A stretch of 32,989 nucleotides of DNA from Smithella sp. PtaU1.Bin162 (GTDB taxonomy: Bacteria > Desulfobacterota > Syntrophia > Syntrophales > Smithellaceae). A model generated the notes under the pieces. That model did not search any database. It saw only the letters and a list, made by a program, of their open reading frames with translations, and had not been told where the DNA came from. Of this stretch, positions 14,657 through 23,035 are shown piece by piece; the first letter of the stretch is position 1, and each line of letters begins with the position of its first letter. Position numbers and translations under genes: made by a program. Location of the stretch: assembly GCA_002068015.1 (NCBI GenBank), contig MVRV01000098.1:1-32989 (forward strand), read 5' to 3'.

Positions 14657-14685
14657 TTGACAAAACATCTTTTCGTGCTACTTAT
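14657..14685 (+). promoter_or_regulatory. Sigma-70 promoter of the nickel-uptake operon
   Basis: A perfect -35 TTGACA (14657-14662) is followed at 16-17 nt by a weak -10 (TACTTA/ACTTAT, 14679-14685). A weak -10 behind a consensus -35 is common for regulated promoters. The -10 lies inside the candidate NikR dyad. Start codon of the first gene is about 30 nt further on. Confidence 0.55.
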
Positions 14686-14701
14686 TTTACATTCGTGACA
14701 C
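14675..14701 (+). promoter_or_regulatory. Candidate NikR operator
   Basis: GTGCTAC (14675-14681), 13 bases, then GTGACAC (14695-14701). This matches the GTGTTAC-N13/14-GTAACAC pattern that I recall for delta-proteobacterial NikR sites with one mismatch per half. It covers the -10 element and the probable start of the beta-barrel/nikMN-Q-O operon and ends 15 nt before its start codon, so nickel-loaded NikR would block transcription. The regulator gene is at 22616-23035. Confidence 0.65.
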
Positions 14702-14716
14702 TATTGGAGATTAAAA

Positions 14717-15499
14717 ATGCGCTGTCAATGCTTGCTTGTCGGATTAATTTTCACTGCTTTTTTGCTTCTCCCGGGAATATCGCAGGCTGCCCACCCGCTC
14801 ATCACTGATGACACGGGAACACAGGGCACAGGAAAATTTCAACTGGAATTAAACGGACAATACGATTCGGATAAAGAAGAGATTGACGGTACCGGCGTCA
14901 AATCTACGGGAGGCCAGGTCTCGACCACAATTTCTTATGGAATCACCGATACTGTTGATCTCGTGGTAACACTTCCGTATCAATGGGGAAGAACTGAAGA
15001 AAATGAAGTAACCACCTATGACGAAAAAGGTATTTCCGATACAGTCCTCGAAGCGAAATGGCGCTTCTGGGAGAAAAACGGTTTCTCTCTGGCCCTGAAA
15101 CCGGGTATCCGTTTCCCCACCGGCAATGAGGAAAAAGGCTTGGGTGCCGGAAAAATCGGCGGCCAGCTTTTTTTAATCGGATCTCAGGAACTGGGCTCCT
15201 GGGCCTTCCATACCAACCTCGGATATATCCGCAATGAAAATAAGGCCGATGAACAATTAAATATCTGGCATGCCTCCTTCGCCGCAACCTGGGAAATCGT
15301 CAAAGATTTAAAACTTGCCGCCAATGTGGGGATCGAACGCAATCCCGATGATAACGCCGGAAACAATCCGGCCTTTCTTATCGGCGGAATTATTTATTCC
15401 GTCACGGAAAATTTTGATCTCGACTGCGGAGTCAAATACGGCTTAACTTCATCGGAAACCGACTGGTCATGGATGGCGGGGATCACCATCCGCTTTTAA
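14717..15499 (+). CDS. Outer-membrane beta-barrel protein, candidate nickel channel
   Basis: A 260-residue exported protein. A signal peptide covers residues 1-24/25 (hydrophobic core VGLIFTAFLLLPG, cleavage after the Ala in SQAA). The mature part begins HPLITDDTGTQGTGK and then alternates aromatic/hydrophobic and polar residues in about ten to twelve amphipathic strands, ending in Arg-Phe, the C-terminal Phe expected of outer-membrane barrels. It resembles the MetA-pathway phenol-degradation/transporter family (PF13557). GGAG lies 7 nt before the ATG. It is the first gene of the operon, only 12 nt before nikMN, and sits directly behind the candidate NikR operator, so a role in passing nickel through the outer membrane is a reasonable inference. 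Family knowledge alone does not give the substrate. Confidence 0.85.
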   Translation: MRCQCLLVGLIFTAFLLLPGISQAAHPLITDDTGTQGTGKFQLELNGQYDSDKEEIDGTGVKSTGGQVSTTISYGITDTVDLVVTLPYQWGRTEENEVTTYDEKGISDTVLEAKWRFWEKNGFSLALKPGIRFPTGNEEKGLGAGKIGGQLFLIGSQELGSWAFHTNLGYIRNENKADEQLNIWHASFAATWEIVKDLKLAANVGIERNPDDNAGNNPAFLIGGIIYSVTENFDLDCGVKYGLTSSETDWSWMAGITIRF

Positions 15500-15511: not shown

Positions 15512-16546
15512 ATGCACATGGCAGACGCCCTAATCTCCCCGGCCGTAGGAGCCACAATGTGGGCCGGGTCTCTCGCCGTCCTCGGGTATTCCTCAAGGAA
15601 AATCCGGGAAACAATCGACAACAAAACGATCCCTCTTATGGGAGTAATGGGCGCTTTCATTTTCGCCGCCCAAATGATCAATTTTACCATACCGGGAACG
15701 GGTTCAAGCGGACACCTGGGAGGAGGTATGATCCTTGCCGCCCTTTTGGGGCCTTATGCGGCATTTGTTGTTGTTGCCTCGGTCCTCACCGTCCAGGCTC
15801 TCTTCTTTGCCGACGGGGGACTTCTTGCCCTGGGCTGCAATGTCTGGAATCTCGGCCTCTATCCTTGCTTTATCGGCTATTATCTTATCTATAAGCCTAT
15901 AGCGGGAGACGGAGGAAATTACCGGAGGATTTTTATTGCGTCACTTCTCAGCGTCATTGTGGCGCTGCAATTCGGCGCCTTTTCGGTAGTTCTGGAAACA
16001 ATCCTCTCCGGCAAAAGTGAGTTGCCTTTCCATACTTTTGTCCTGCTCATGCAGCCGATACATCTGGCCATCGGCCTTGTGGAGGGAATCGTCACCGCTG
16101 GAATTCTCAGTTATGTTAAGAACGCCCGGCCGGAGATTCTGGATACGGGCGCAGTTTCCCGCCCTCCTGCCGCCGGTCTGCCCTGCAAAAACATCCTGAT
16201 TGTCTTTGTGGTTCTTGCTGTCTTAACAGGCGGTGTGCTTTCCTGGTTTGCGTCCACTTCTCCCGACGGCCTCGAGTGGTCAATTGAAAAGGTCACCGGC
16301 AAAGGAGAACTTGCAGAGCAGGAGAAGGGAATCGCACCCGTTCTTAAAGAAATTCAGGAGAAGACCGCTTTCCTTCCGGATTATAACTTTAAACAGGCAC
16401 ATAAAGAAAAACCGGAAACGGAGAAAGTTCCCGCCTGGCCGGGGATCGATACGGGCACTTCAGTGTCCGGTGTTGTGGGCGGCGGCATTGTCCTGGGAAT
16501 CGTTTTTCTCATCGGCTACGGCATCAGAATTTTCAAGCGGCAATAA
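15512..16546 (+). CDS. nikM: ECF-type nickel transporter, fused substrate-binding components NikM-NikN
   Basis: A 344-residue inner-membrane protein. Residues 1-205 are a CbiM/NikM S-component. The mature N-terminus MHMADAL puts His2 in the metal-binding position, and the SSGHLGGG loop with His68 and the GCNVWNLG segment with Asn110 are the other conserved parts. After a linker and a membrane helix (about 228-246) comes a PDGLE domain (SPDGLEWSIEKVTG from 250), the NikN/CbiN-type part, with a final membrane helix. Fusion of the two parts is known in nickel systems. AAGGAG precedes the ATG. It works with NikQ and NikO. Nickel rather than cobalt is inferred from the candidate NikR site; no cobalamin riboswitch is seen upstream. 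Confidence 0.9.
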   Translation: MHMADALISPAVGATMWAGSLAVLGYSSRKIRETIDNKTIPLMGVMGAFIFAAQMINFTIPGTGSSGHLGGGMILAALLGPYAAFVVVASVLTVQALFFADGGLLALGCNVWNLGLYPCFIGYYLIYKPIAGDGGNYRRIFIASLLSVIVALQFGAFSVVLETILSGKSELPFHTFVLLMQPIHLAIGLVEGIVTAGILSYVKNARPEILDTGAVSRPPAAGLPCKNILIVFVVLAVLTGGVLSWFASTSPDGLEWSIEKVTGKGELAEQEKGIAPVLKEIQEKTAFLPDYNFKQAHKEKPETEKVPAWPGIDTGTSVSGVVGGGIVLGIVFLIGYGIRIFKRQ

Positions 16547-16641
16547 AATAAAAAGGCATCACGCCTGCTCCGGAACAAAAGGATTGCAGCCACCGGGCCG
16601 GTGCATGTTATTTTGCCAGCATATTGAGAAGTATTTTATTT

Positions 16642-17451
16642 ATGGCTTTTGACTCACAATACTATAATGTCGGTTATCTCGACCGGCTTTCCTATCAGGA
16701 TACCTTTGTGCACCGGCTCGACCCCAGGACCAAACTGATCACTACCCTGCTCTTTCTTTTTACCGTGATTTCCTTTTCCAAGTATGAAGTGGCGGCCCTT
16801 TTCCCTTTTCTGCTCTTTCCGGCAATATTCCTGACCGTCGGAGAGATTCCCCCGGGCTTTATCCTGAAAAAAGTTCTCCTTGTTTCTCCTTTTGCGATCT
16901 TCATCGGCATCTTCAACCCCCTGCTCGACCATGGACAGGTTGCGATTCTGCCGGGATTGACTCTTCCGGCCGGGTGGTTGTCTTTTGCCTCAATCCTGCT
17001 TAAATTTTTTCTGACCGTCAGCATGGCGCTGCTCCTTATTGCCACGACTTCTTTCCCGACAATCTGTCACGCCCTGCGGCGGCTGGGACTTCCCTCTATT
17101 TTCGTGTCTCAGCTCCTTTTCCTGTACCGTTACATCTTCGTCCTGGGGGAAGAGGTCATGCGCATTGTCCGTGCCCGCGACATGAGATCTTACGGCCGGA
17201 AGGGAACGGAAATAAAAGTCTTCGTCCGTATCGCCGGAGTTCTTTTTCTGCGAACCGTGGAAAGGGCGGAAAGAATCTATTTCGCCATGCTGGCTCGGGG
17301 TTATGAGGGAGATATGCCGGTAAGTAAAAAATACCATTTAACAACAAGTGATCTGGCCTTTGCCTTATCCGTTATCGTCTGTCTCTTTATTTTTCGCTGT
17401 TATCCGGTCACCCAAATCATCGGCAATTTTTTCCGGGGGATATTCTCATGA
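16642..17451 (+). CDS. nikQ: ECF transporter transmembrane component NikQ/CbiQ
   Basis: A 269-residue energy-coupling T-component with five or six membrane helices. The N-terminus DRLSYQDTFVHRLDPRTKL and the two short coupling motifs containing Ala-Arg (VRARDMRSYGR at about 174-184; MLARGYEGDM about 35 residues later), which contact the ATPase, are characteristic of CbiQ/NikQ. The ATG at 16642 is preferred to a TTG 18 nt earlier; a GAGAAG site lies upstream. The stop codon overlaps the nikO start by 4 nt (ATGA). The 95-nt gap after nikMN holds a 6-bp palindromic hairpin (16591-16603) that could tune expression between the S-component and the ATPase module. Confidence 0.9.
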   Translation: MAFDSQYYNVGYLDRLSYQDTFVHRLDPRTKLITTLLFLFTVISFSKYEVAALFPFLLFPAIFLTVGEIPPGFILKKVLLVSPFAIFIGIFNPLLDHGQVAILPGLTLPAGWLSFASILLKFFLTVSMALLLIATTSFPTICHALRRLGLPSIFVSQLLFLYRYIFVLGEEVMRIVRARDMRSYGRKGTEIKVFVRIAGVLFLRTVERAERIYFAMLARGYEGDMPVSKKYHLTTSDLAFALSVIVCLFIFRCYPVTQIIGNFFRGIFS

Positions 17452-18182
17452 GCCATCATATCGTGGAATTTAAAGATGTCTGTTTCCGGTATCCCGACGG
17501 GACGGAAGCACTGCATAATCTTTCCTTCCGGATTATCCACGGGGAATCAGTCGGCATTATCGGAGCGAACGGTTCCGGAAAATCCACACTACTTCTGCAT
17601 ATGAACGGCTACCTGATGCCGACTGGAGGAACGGTGAATATCGGCGATCTTCATCTGACACGCAAAACACGCCGGGAAATACGTAAAAAAGTCGGTATCG
17701 TTTTTCAGAATCCCGACGATCAGCTGTTTATGCCTACCGTTTACGATGACGTAGCTTTCGGTCCGCAAAACCTCGGCATGGATGAAGAAGATGTGCAAAA
17801 ACGGGTTCGCGCAGCTCTTGATCTGGTCAACTGTTATGATCTCATCAATAAACCGCCGCACCATCTCTCGAACGGCCAGAAAAGCGCCGTGGCCATCGCT
17901 GCGGTCATGGCTATGGAACCGGATATCCTCGCCATGGATGAGCCTGCGGCCAACCTTGATCCGAAATCAAGGCGTCTGCTCATCAACCTGCTCAAAACTT
18001 TCGAGCACTCCAAAATCATCGCCTCGCACGATCTGGATCTGATCTTCGACGTCTGCAAACGCTGCATTATCATCCGGGAAGGAACGGTCGCAGCCGACGG
18101 CCCCTCCCAAGATATCCTCACCAACAAGATCCTGCTTGAAGAAAATAATCTGGAGTTGCCGCTTTCGCTCCAGCGACGCTGA
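17448..18182 (+). CDS. nikO: ECF transporter ATPase NikO/CbiO
   Basis: A 244-residue ABC ATPase that powers the nickel importer. Walker A is GANGSGKST (39-47), the Q-loop glutamine is in VFQNPDDQLF (85-94), as is usual for cobalt/nickel ECF ATPases, the signature is LSNGQ (140-144, instead of LSGGQ), Walker B ends LAMDEP with Glu165 as the catalytic base, and the switch histidine is His194. The start codon overlaps the nikQ stop. It is the last gene of the operon; no obvious intrinsic terminator follows. Confidence 0.93.
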   Translation: MSHHIVEFKDVCFRYPDGTEALHNLSFRIIHGESVGIIGANGSGKSTLLLHMNGYLMPTGGTVNIGDLHLTRKTRREIRKKVGIVFQNPDDQLFMPTVYDDVAFGPQNLGMDEEDVQKRVRAALDLVNCYDLINKPPHHLSNGQKSAVAIAAVMAMEPDILAMDEPAANLDPKSRRLLINLLKTFEHSKIIASHDLDLIFDVCKRCIIIREGTVAADGPSQDILTNKILLEENNLELPLSLQRR

Positions 18183-20311: not shown

Positions 20312-20935
20312 ATGGCGGATGATCAAAAAGATCTCAGAATTTTGAAAAACAGGCTCGAGGCTCTTGTGGACGGGATTTTTGCGTTCGCCATGACCCTGCT
20401 TGTCACCGGTCTCGTCATTCCGCACCTTTCCAAAACGGAAGCCAAGGTAAAACTCGCCCCGATTCTCGCCGGAATGCAGTCCGAGTTTATATCCTTTATA
20501 GTTGCTTTCTTCGTTCTCGCTTCCTTCTGGCGTATCCACAACCGGCAGTATCATTATATTCGCATAATCGATTCCGTTGTCATGAGAATCACACTGTTCA
20601 CGCTGATTTTTGTGGTTTTGATGCCCTTTACTACAAATCTCAGTGGAGATTATTCCGATGTTCAGCTTGCCGTCTGTCTCTTCCACGGCAACATGTTCAG
20701 TCTCGGTTTTTTTCTGCTTATTCATTGGTGGTATCTGGCAAAAACTCCCGAAATAACTTCCTCTCCGATCAGCAGAAGTACAGCGTTTAAAGGCATTTGC
20801 AGATCCATGATTACACCCGTTATTTCCGCTCTGGCCTTCATTGTTTCTTTTATTTCACCATCATGGTCAATGGCGGTATACTTTTTAATCATACCCTTTG
20901 TTGTTGTTGTCGAAAAACACTCCCGCCCCTCTTAA
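20312..20935 (+). CDS. TMEM175-family (DUF1211) potassium channel protein
   Basis: A 207-residue membrane protein with about six helices. The first helix has the family pattern RLEALVDGIFAFAMTLL (14-30), the bacterial version of the pore-lining FSD motif of TMEM175 potassium leak channels, followed by a T/L-rich helix end. ATG at 20312 with GAGAG upstream; 55 bp after hisC. Bacterial members form tetrameric K+ channels; the physiological role here is unknown. Confidence 0.88.
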   Translation: MADDQKDLRILKNRLEALVDGIFAFAMTLLVTGLVIPHLSKTEAKVKLAPILAGMQSEFISFIVAFFVLASFWRIHNRQYHYIRIIDSVVMRITLFTLIFVVLMPFTTNLSGDYSDVQLAVCLFHGNMFSLGFFLLIHWWYLAKTPEITSSPISRSTAFKGICRSMITPVISALAFIVSFISPSWSMAVYFLIIPFVVVVEKHSRPS

Positions 20936-22615: not shown

Positions 22616-23035
22616 CTACCTTAATGTTTCTTCCGCCGTTCCCGTCATACTGAGCGCACAGTGACGAACACCCTTGATTGCCCTCAAGGAATCGGAAAGC
22701 TGCAGAACTTTCTTCACTCTCCCCCTGACGGCAACAATTTCCAGGCAGTTATGGTGATCGAGATGAATATGCTGGGTGGAGATAATCACATCCTGACTGT
22801 CATGCTGAATATCAATAATCCTGCTTAAGAGTTCTCTCGTGTGATGATCGTAAATATAGGTAATGGCGCCCGCTACTTCGCCGCCTTCCTCCCAATCCTG
22901 TTTAAGCAGTTCCTGACGGATCATATCGCGAAGCGCCTCCGAGCGGTTGGTATATTTCCGGCGGTGAATCAAATCGTCGAATCTTCTCAAAAGCCCTTCT
23001 TCCAGTGAAACCCCGAATCTGACCAGTTCCGACAT
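22616..23035 (-). CDS. nikR: Nickel-responsive transcriptional regulator NikR
   Basis: A 139-residue ribbon-helix-helix repressor with ACT-type metal domain. The N-terminal RHH part (RFGVSLEEGLLRRFDDLI, then NRSEALRDMIRQ) is clear. The four high-affinity nickel ligands of E. coli NikR (His76, His87, His89, Cys95) align with His78, His89, His91 and Cys97, in STQHIHLDHHNCLE. The ATG at 23035 follows a GGGAGGATG site. It is transcribed divergently from uppP. Its likely target is the nickel-uptake operon at 14717-18182, whose promoter overlaps a NikR-type dyad. It may also regulate itself (see 23056-23085). Confidence 0.95.
   Translation of the reverse strand: MSELVRFGVSLEEGLLRRFDDLIHRRKYTNRSEALRDMIRQELLKQDWEEGGEVAGAITYIYDHHTRELLSRIIDIQHDSQDVIISTQHIHLDHHNCLEIVAVRGRVKKVLQLSDSLRAIKGVRHCALSMTGTAEETLR

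Follow-up and report, generated by a model that had tools for sequence, protein, structure and literature searches.

Members of the COG4313 family (PF13557), which carries a "phenol degradation" annotation, include the channels Pput2725 of Pseudomonas putida (4RL8), SphA and TcpY, whose genes adjoin catabolic genes and for which uptake of amphipathic or hydrophobic organic molecules has been proposed. The lumen of 4RL8 is filled by its first 14 residues; the channel conducts only above 150 mV and binds detergent, and its authors proposed that hydrophobic molecules pass by lateral diffusion. Passage of ferrous iron and of free nickel or cobalt across the outer membrane is usually ascribed to porins of no specified kind; for nickel, a few TonB-dependent receptors are also invoked, FrpB4 and FecA3 providing a NikR-linked uptake step. 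For the delta-proteobacterial NikR regulon, the available text of Rodionov 2004 (PMC545781) gives the reconstructed consensus GTGTTAC-N13/14-GTAACAC with nikMNQO as a target, and mentions no outer-membrane barrel there.

Within the window analysed here (the whole stretch of 32,989 nucleotides), the operator consensus and the nikMNQO target of this regulon recur, but an outer-membrane barrel of the PF13557 fold is the first gene behind the predicted operator. The barrel resembles the COG4313 channels in its profile match, fold, N-terminal segment and P-[TS]-G loop motif; it differs in that its gene and those of its relatives adjoin metal importers and NikR or Fur rather than catabolic genes. 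We consider it fairly probable that the barrel is a channel that lets divalent transition metals enter through the outer membrane without TonB, and that it has here been placed under NikR together with the nickel operon. Its putative role would thus match that of FrpB4 and FecA3, although the barrel lacks their plug domain (PF07715 is not among its Pfam matches), has only ~236 mature residues and would not be expected to involve TonB. The parts belong to known families, and what seems to be new is the tie of one COG4313 clade to transition-metal import across several phyla; a search of open-access literature yielded no publication that connects COG4313 with metal uptake. If the reading is correct, the outer-membrane step would be supplied by a channel family whose genes accompany the Feo, Nik and Cbi systems of Syntrophales, Nitrospirota and Desulfobulbaceae, many "phenol degradation" proteins would be re-annotated, and a fold with largely unknown natural substrates would gain a substrate class.

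The predicted operator and the nickel operon

The dyad GTGCTAC-N13-GTGACAC, at an operator-to-ATG distance of 42 nt from the barrel gene, agrees with the published consensus at 12 of 14 positions (two mismatches), and its right half, GTGACAC, is identical to that of the Geobacter sulfurreducens NikR site in the available text of the same study (PMC545781). A scan of the window with the consensus, allowing up to two mismatches, returned this dyad as the only match, compared with 0.01 expected from shuffles; this expectation was computed from the independently published NikR pattern and not from the letters of the dyad itself. On this sequence evidence the dyad, which an earlier note on this DNA had described, is a predicted NikR-type operator. 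It extends from 12 nt past a perfect -35 hexamer to beyond the presumed transcription start, which is a normal location for a repressor site. The earlier note had placed the dyad exactly on the -10 of a promoter with a perfect -35: the TTGACA and the geometry stand, whereas the -10 is weak (ACTTAT at 14680-14685, three of six matches at a 17-nt spacer) and a sigma-70 scan listed no plus-strand promoter. Elsewhere in the same genome, a second consensus-like match (G000:C24:4811-4838, locus L103) lies 19 nt before a tyrosine-integrase-like ORF with Cas-like ORFs adjoining (assigned by eye). We rejected it as a true operator and regard it as probably a chance match, given this context and the four matches of the backward pattern.

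Table 1. Features of the barrel operon and its regulator, in window positions
Feature	Position	Strand	Basis or remark
-35-like hexamer, TTGACA	14657-14662	+	Read directly; also before the dyad in loci L113 and L125
Predicted NikR-type operator, GTGCTAC-N13-GTGACAC	14675-14701	+	Direct reading, consensus match, conservation in orthologous operons
Outer-membrane barrel, PF13557/COG4313, 260 aa	14717-15499	+	PF13557 profile, predicted structure, fold matches
Barrel signal peptide	14717-14788	+	By eye from aligned N-termini; likely cleavage SQA/AHPL (relatives AFA/GHPL)
N-terminal segment, AHPLITDDTGTQGTGK	14789-14836	+	Residues 1-16 of the model, ordered but not in a strand
nikMN, ECF S-component, CbiM + PDGLE fusion	15512-16546	+	PF01891 E 2.6e-59, PF13190 E 1.2e-32
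Terminator-like hairpin, CACCGGGCCGGTG	16591-16603		Between nikMN and nikQ
nikQ, ECF T-component	16642-17451	+	TIGR02454 over cut-off; alternative TTG start at 16624 possible
nikO, ECF ATPase	17448-18182	+	PF00005 and ECF_ATPase models
nikR, nickel-responsive ribbon-helix-helix repressor	22619-23035	-	PF08753, NF003381; passes NCBIfam cut-offs

The ECF importer set behind the barrel is complete, with S (CbiM plus PDGLE), T (CbiQ) and ATPase subunits found. The tight spacing claimed earlier holds between barrel and nikMN (12 nt) and between nikQ and nikO (4-nt overlap), but nikMN and nikQ are separated by ~95 nt when the nikQ ATG is used, and the hairpin within this gap could lower nikQO expression relative to the barrel and nikMN. 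Likewise, the barrel is fused to the nickel genes at the level of the operon and not as a gene fusion. The NCBIfam models that match NikMN best are for cobalt and stay below cut-off; the predicted operator and the nikR gene argue for nickel rather than cobalt as the importer substrate. nikR lies 4.4 kb downstream of the operon and is the sole copy, since NikR_C has a single match in the genome. Its product, noted earlier for its four nickel ligands, indeed shows the His76/His87/His89/Cys95 spacing pattern when read from the sequence (E. coli numbering). The window also encodes a TMEM175-type potassium channel homologue (PF06736) at 20312-20935.

Neither a [NiFe] hydrogenase nor CODH/ACS was found in this genome, which counts against the proposed reading; the sole nickel-enzyme candidate found is a LarA-family protein (C99:7494-8090), and the prismane-family protein is a hydroxylamine reductase. 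The genome has one TonB receptor, which lies beside ABC permease and ATPase genes of siderophore/B12 type, so that a receptor-based nickel route is not apparent.

The barrel protein

As the earlier note had it, the first gene behind the operator encodes a barrel with a signal peptide and a C-terminal Phe; its match to PF13557 has an E-value of 2e-24 (87.4 bits, gathering cut-off 22). An AlphaFold2 model of the mature protein, built with 71 homologues, has a pLDDT of 92 and predicts a 12-stranded barrel, with 13 strand elements in DSSP when 74-82 and 85-96, here counted together as a single kinked strand, are listed separately. While a sequence-profile search of solved structures gave no match, the top structural matches to the model are tied between the polypeptide (amyloid) exporter FapF (5O65, Z 24.9) and 4RL8 (Z 24.2), the latter aligning over 233 residues (barrel residues 2-236) with an rmsd of 2.4 and ~14% identity. 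The N-terminal segment is expected, from the model and by analogy with the plug known in 4RL8, to fold into the barrel lumen. It contains A-H-P-L-I-T-D-D, one of the best-conserved stretches in the family, with H2, D7 and D8 near-invariant. H2, H141, H161, E20, D57, K104, D212 and K216 are near-invariant in the barrel clade, and the same positions in 12 sister sequences carry P, Y, mostly Q, Y, Q, F, L and G, respectively. The three histidines, which together with the A/G-HPLxTDD plug distinguish the barrel from the known COG4313 channels, are near-invariant across both Ni/Co-linked and Fe-linked members. Candidate residues for Ni/Co versus Fe specificity were discarded: the differences lie mostly in strand 1 and the loops rather than at the conserved histidines, and may reflect phylogeny.

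The main doubt about a metal channel comes from analogy with the best-studied relative, which was judged to be a channel for hydrophobic molecules. The barrel might likewise import an amphipathic or hydrophobic organic molecule by lateral diffusion, as proposed for SphA, TcpY and Pput2725, in the form of a small metallophore-like chelate or a ligand needed with the metal. We consider this unlikely, even though 4RL8 is the closest uptake-channel fold and the P-[TS]-G motif, part of a conserved loop patch, is retained in the barrel clade. The importers to which the barrels are linked (NikMNQO, CbiMNQO, FeoB, HupE) take up free or loosely bound metal ions, and no metallophore synthesis genes were seen among the annotated neighbours. 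Moreover, the predicted lumen-facing positions, assigned by strand alternation, exceed the lipid-facing ones in both conservation and polarity in most strands.

Operators and genes beside the barrel family

In the order-level set of 155 genomes, the barrel occurs in 71 and a NikM relative in 73. The dyad upstream of the barrel is conserved in most barrel-nikMN loci of the order, where it scores 11-14 of 14 and usually lies 41-44 nt before the barrel gene; lower scores occur at the fused-NikMN loci L011 (10), L022 (9) and L015 (8). By contrast, a NikR-type dyad is absent upstream of FeoB-linked barrel relatives, those behind feoB in the order set scoring 8-9. In the wider set, the mean score was 11.3/14 for 32 barrel-NikMN operons versus 8.5 for 28 FeoB-linked barrels (Mann-Whitney p = 3e-9, indicative only as the sequences are related). 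Many barrel-less nikMN operons retain a dyad scoring 10-14 before nikMN or near nikR; the barrel thus resembles a cassette that may or may not be inserted between operator and importer. NikR-type half sites at partnerless Desulfobulbaceae barrels were not counted, as these matches straddle the start codon picked by the ORF caller.

Neighbourhoods were taken for the barrel matches in the order and for the best 80 of 402 matches in the genome collection. Among the 69 barrels of the order, 61 lie beside metal genes, namely 36 beside Ni/Co ECF importers, 18 beside feoB, four beside fur only, two beside B12 genes and one beside nikR, leaving eight others, of which four (L064, L088, L090, L095) are at or near contig ends. 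The underlying script tally was ECF 33, Feo 18, Fur 4, B12 2, NikR 1, NikQO 1 and other 10, from which L028 and L030 were reassigned by hand from other to ECF, nikQ-nikO immediately preceding the barrel in both. The wide set of 115 de-duplicated barrels gave 51 ECF, 28 FeoB, four Fur and two NikR neighbourhoods, with 30 unlabelled; the unlabelled ones include nikQ-nikO (L072), cbiK (L130), hupE with cbiD (L172), DUF4198 (L148) and B12 synthesis genes at L096 (by eye) and L097 (by similarity). About 25 barrels of the wide set, a Desulfobulbaceae group included, have no recognisable metal neighbour. Within ECF operons the barrel gene is first, last or internal, and the Feo gene orders are fur-feoA-feoB-barrel in Syntrophales versus fur-barrel-feoA-feoB in Nitrospirota. 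In the order, no barrel adjoins at least 18 of the nikMN loci, and it is therefore dispensable.

The earlier note suggested that the barrel serves this group as its outer-membrane channel for nickel entry. This fits the nickel-linked subgroup, where close relatives are tied to nickel importers, but is too narrow for a family that is also tightly linked to feoAB, and to cbiMNQO, hupE/cbiD, cbiK and B12 genes. A nickel-exclusive channel is ruled out, since 18 of the 69 barrels of the order adjoin feoB; the gene contexts suggest that the family property is transition metals in general rather than nickel alone. DUF4198 proteins, periplasmic nickel-binding proteins linked to NikR and Ni/Co importers (PMC12537917), are encoded next to it in L025 and L148; unlike the barrel they are soluble, and they are absent from the window operon. 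A DUF4198 protein is a possible hand-off partner of the barrel.

In three loci (L067, L076, L085), a ZIP-like gene (~301 aa, by eye) lies next to the barrel on the opposite strand, a possible link to zinc or iron; L076 and L085 also have fur upstream of the barrel. Near several of the Desulfobulbaceae barrels with no recognised metal neighbour (L159, L164, L166, L170, L146, L189), a peptidase M50-like gene recurs (by eye).

A role of the barrel in metal homeostasis other than uptake, for example as an exporter or as a part of the cell envelope regulated together with metal uptake, would suit the top-ranking fold match to FapF, tied with 4RL8, and the barrels that have no adjacent importer. However, the barrel has other partner genes than FapF, with no amyloid genes noted among its neighbours, no secreted partner gene recurs, and a position behind starvation-type regulators (NikR, Fur) together with importers fits uptake rather than export; we therefore regard such a role as improbable.

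A quick tree of 113 barrels requires at least six changes of Ni/Co label and at least seven of Fe label on well-supported branches, which points to repeated recruitment rather than a single frozen arrangement, although the labels nonetheless cluster on the tree beyond shuffles. That the neighbourhoods are mostly a vertically inherited chance arrangement with little functional meaning, as the clustering and the many orthologous operons from close relatives might suggest, is very hard to reconcile with these forced partner changes, the several gene orders and importer types, and a sister clade without such linkage.

The operator sequence with its conservation, the gene order, the predicted fold, the recurrent linkage and the conserved residues are observations; for uptake of metals through the barrel, we infer the transport itself, its direction, the binding of NikR to the operator and what the plug does. 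Under nickel scarcity, NikR would leave the operator, allowing one transcript for the barrel and NikMNQO, and divalent transition-metal ions or small complexes would reach the periplasm through the COG4313/PF13557-fold channel without TonB, the N-terminal Ala/Gly-His-Pro-Leu-x-Thr-Asp-Asp segment probably acting as a lumen gate. Relatives have been recruited many times to CbiMNQO, HupE and FeoAB; given this repeated recruitment, the channel itself probably does not discriminate strictly between metals, with selectivity residing in the importer. More tentatively, and at somewhat less than even chances, the COG4313 barrel clade as a whole may be a general TonB-independent entry route for Ni2+, Co2+ and Fe2+, paired repeatedly with the matching inner-membrane importer and gated by the X-His-Pro-Leu-x-Thr-Asp-Asp plug and the pore histidines.

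The sister PF13557 clade shares 22-28% identity with the barrel clade. As a control, none of these Ni/Co/Fe importers was found beside 13 distant PF13557 paralogues from the same genomes (the start of some neighbours was read by eye), one of which (L192) follows a cation P-type ATPase-like gene. Members of the sister clade (L192-L203) have an N-terminus of the type AGPPF.TDDPEPVEY, and genes for two small membrane proteins (~150 and ~112 aa) often follow theirs. Finally, at L176:5812-7824, a TonB-dependent receptor gene is flanked by two CbiM-type clusters and immediately precedes a barrel gene, placing two outer-membrane routes side by side.
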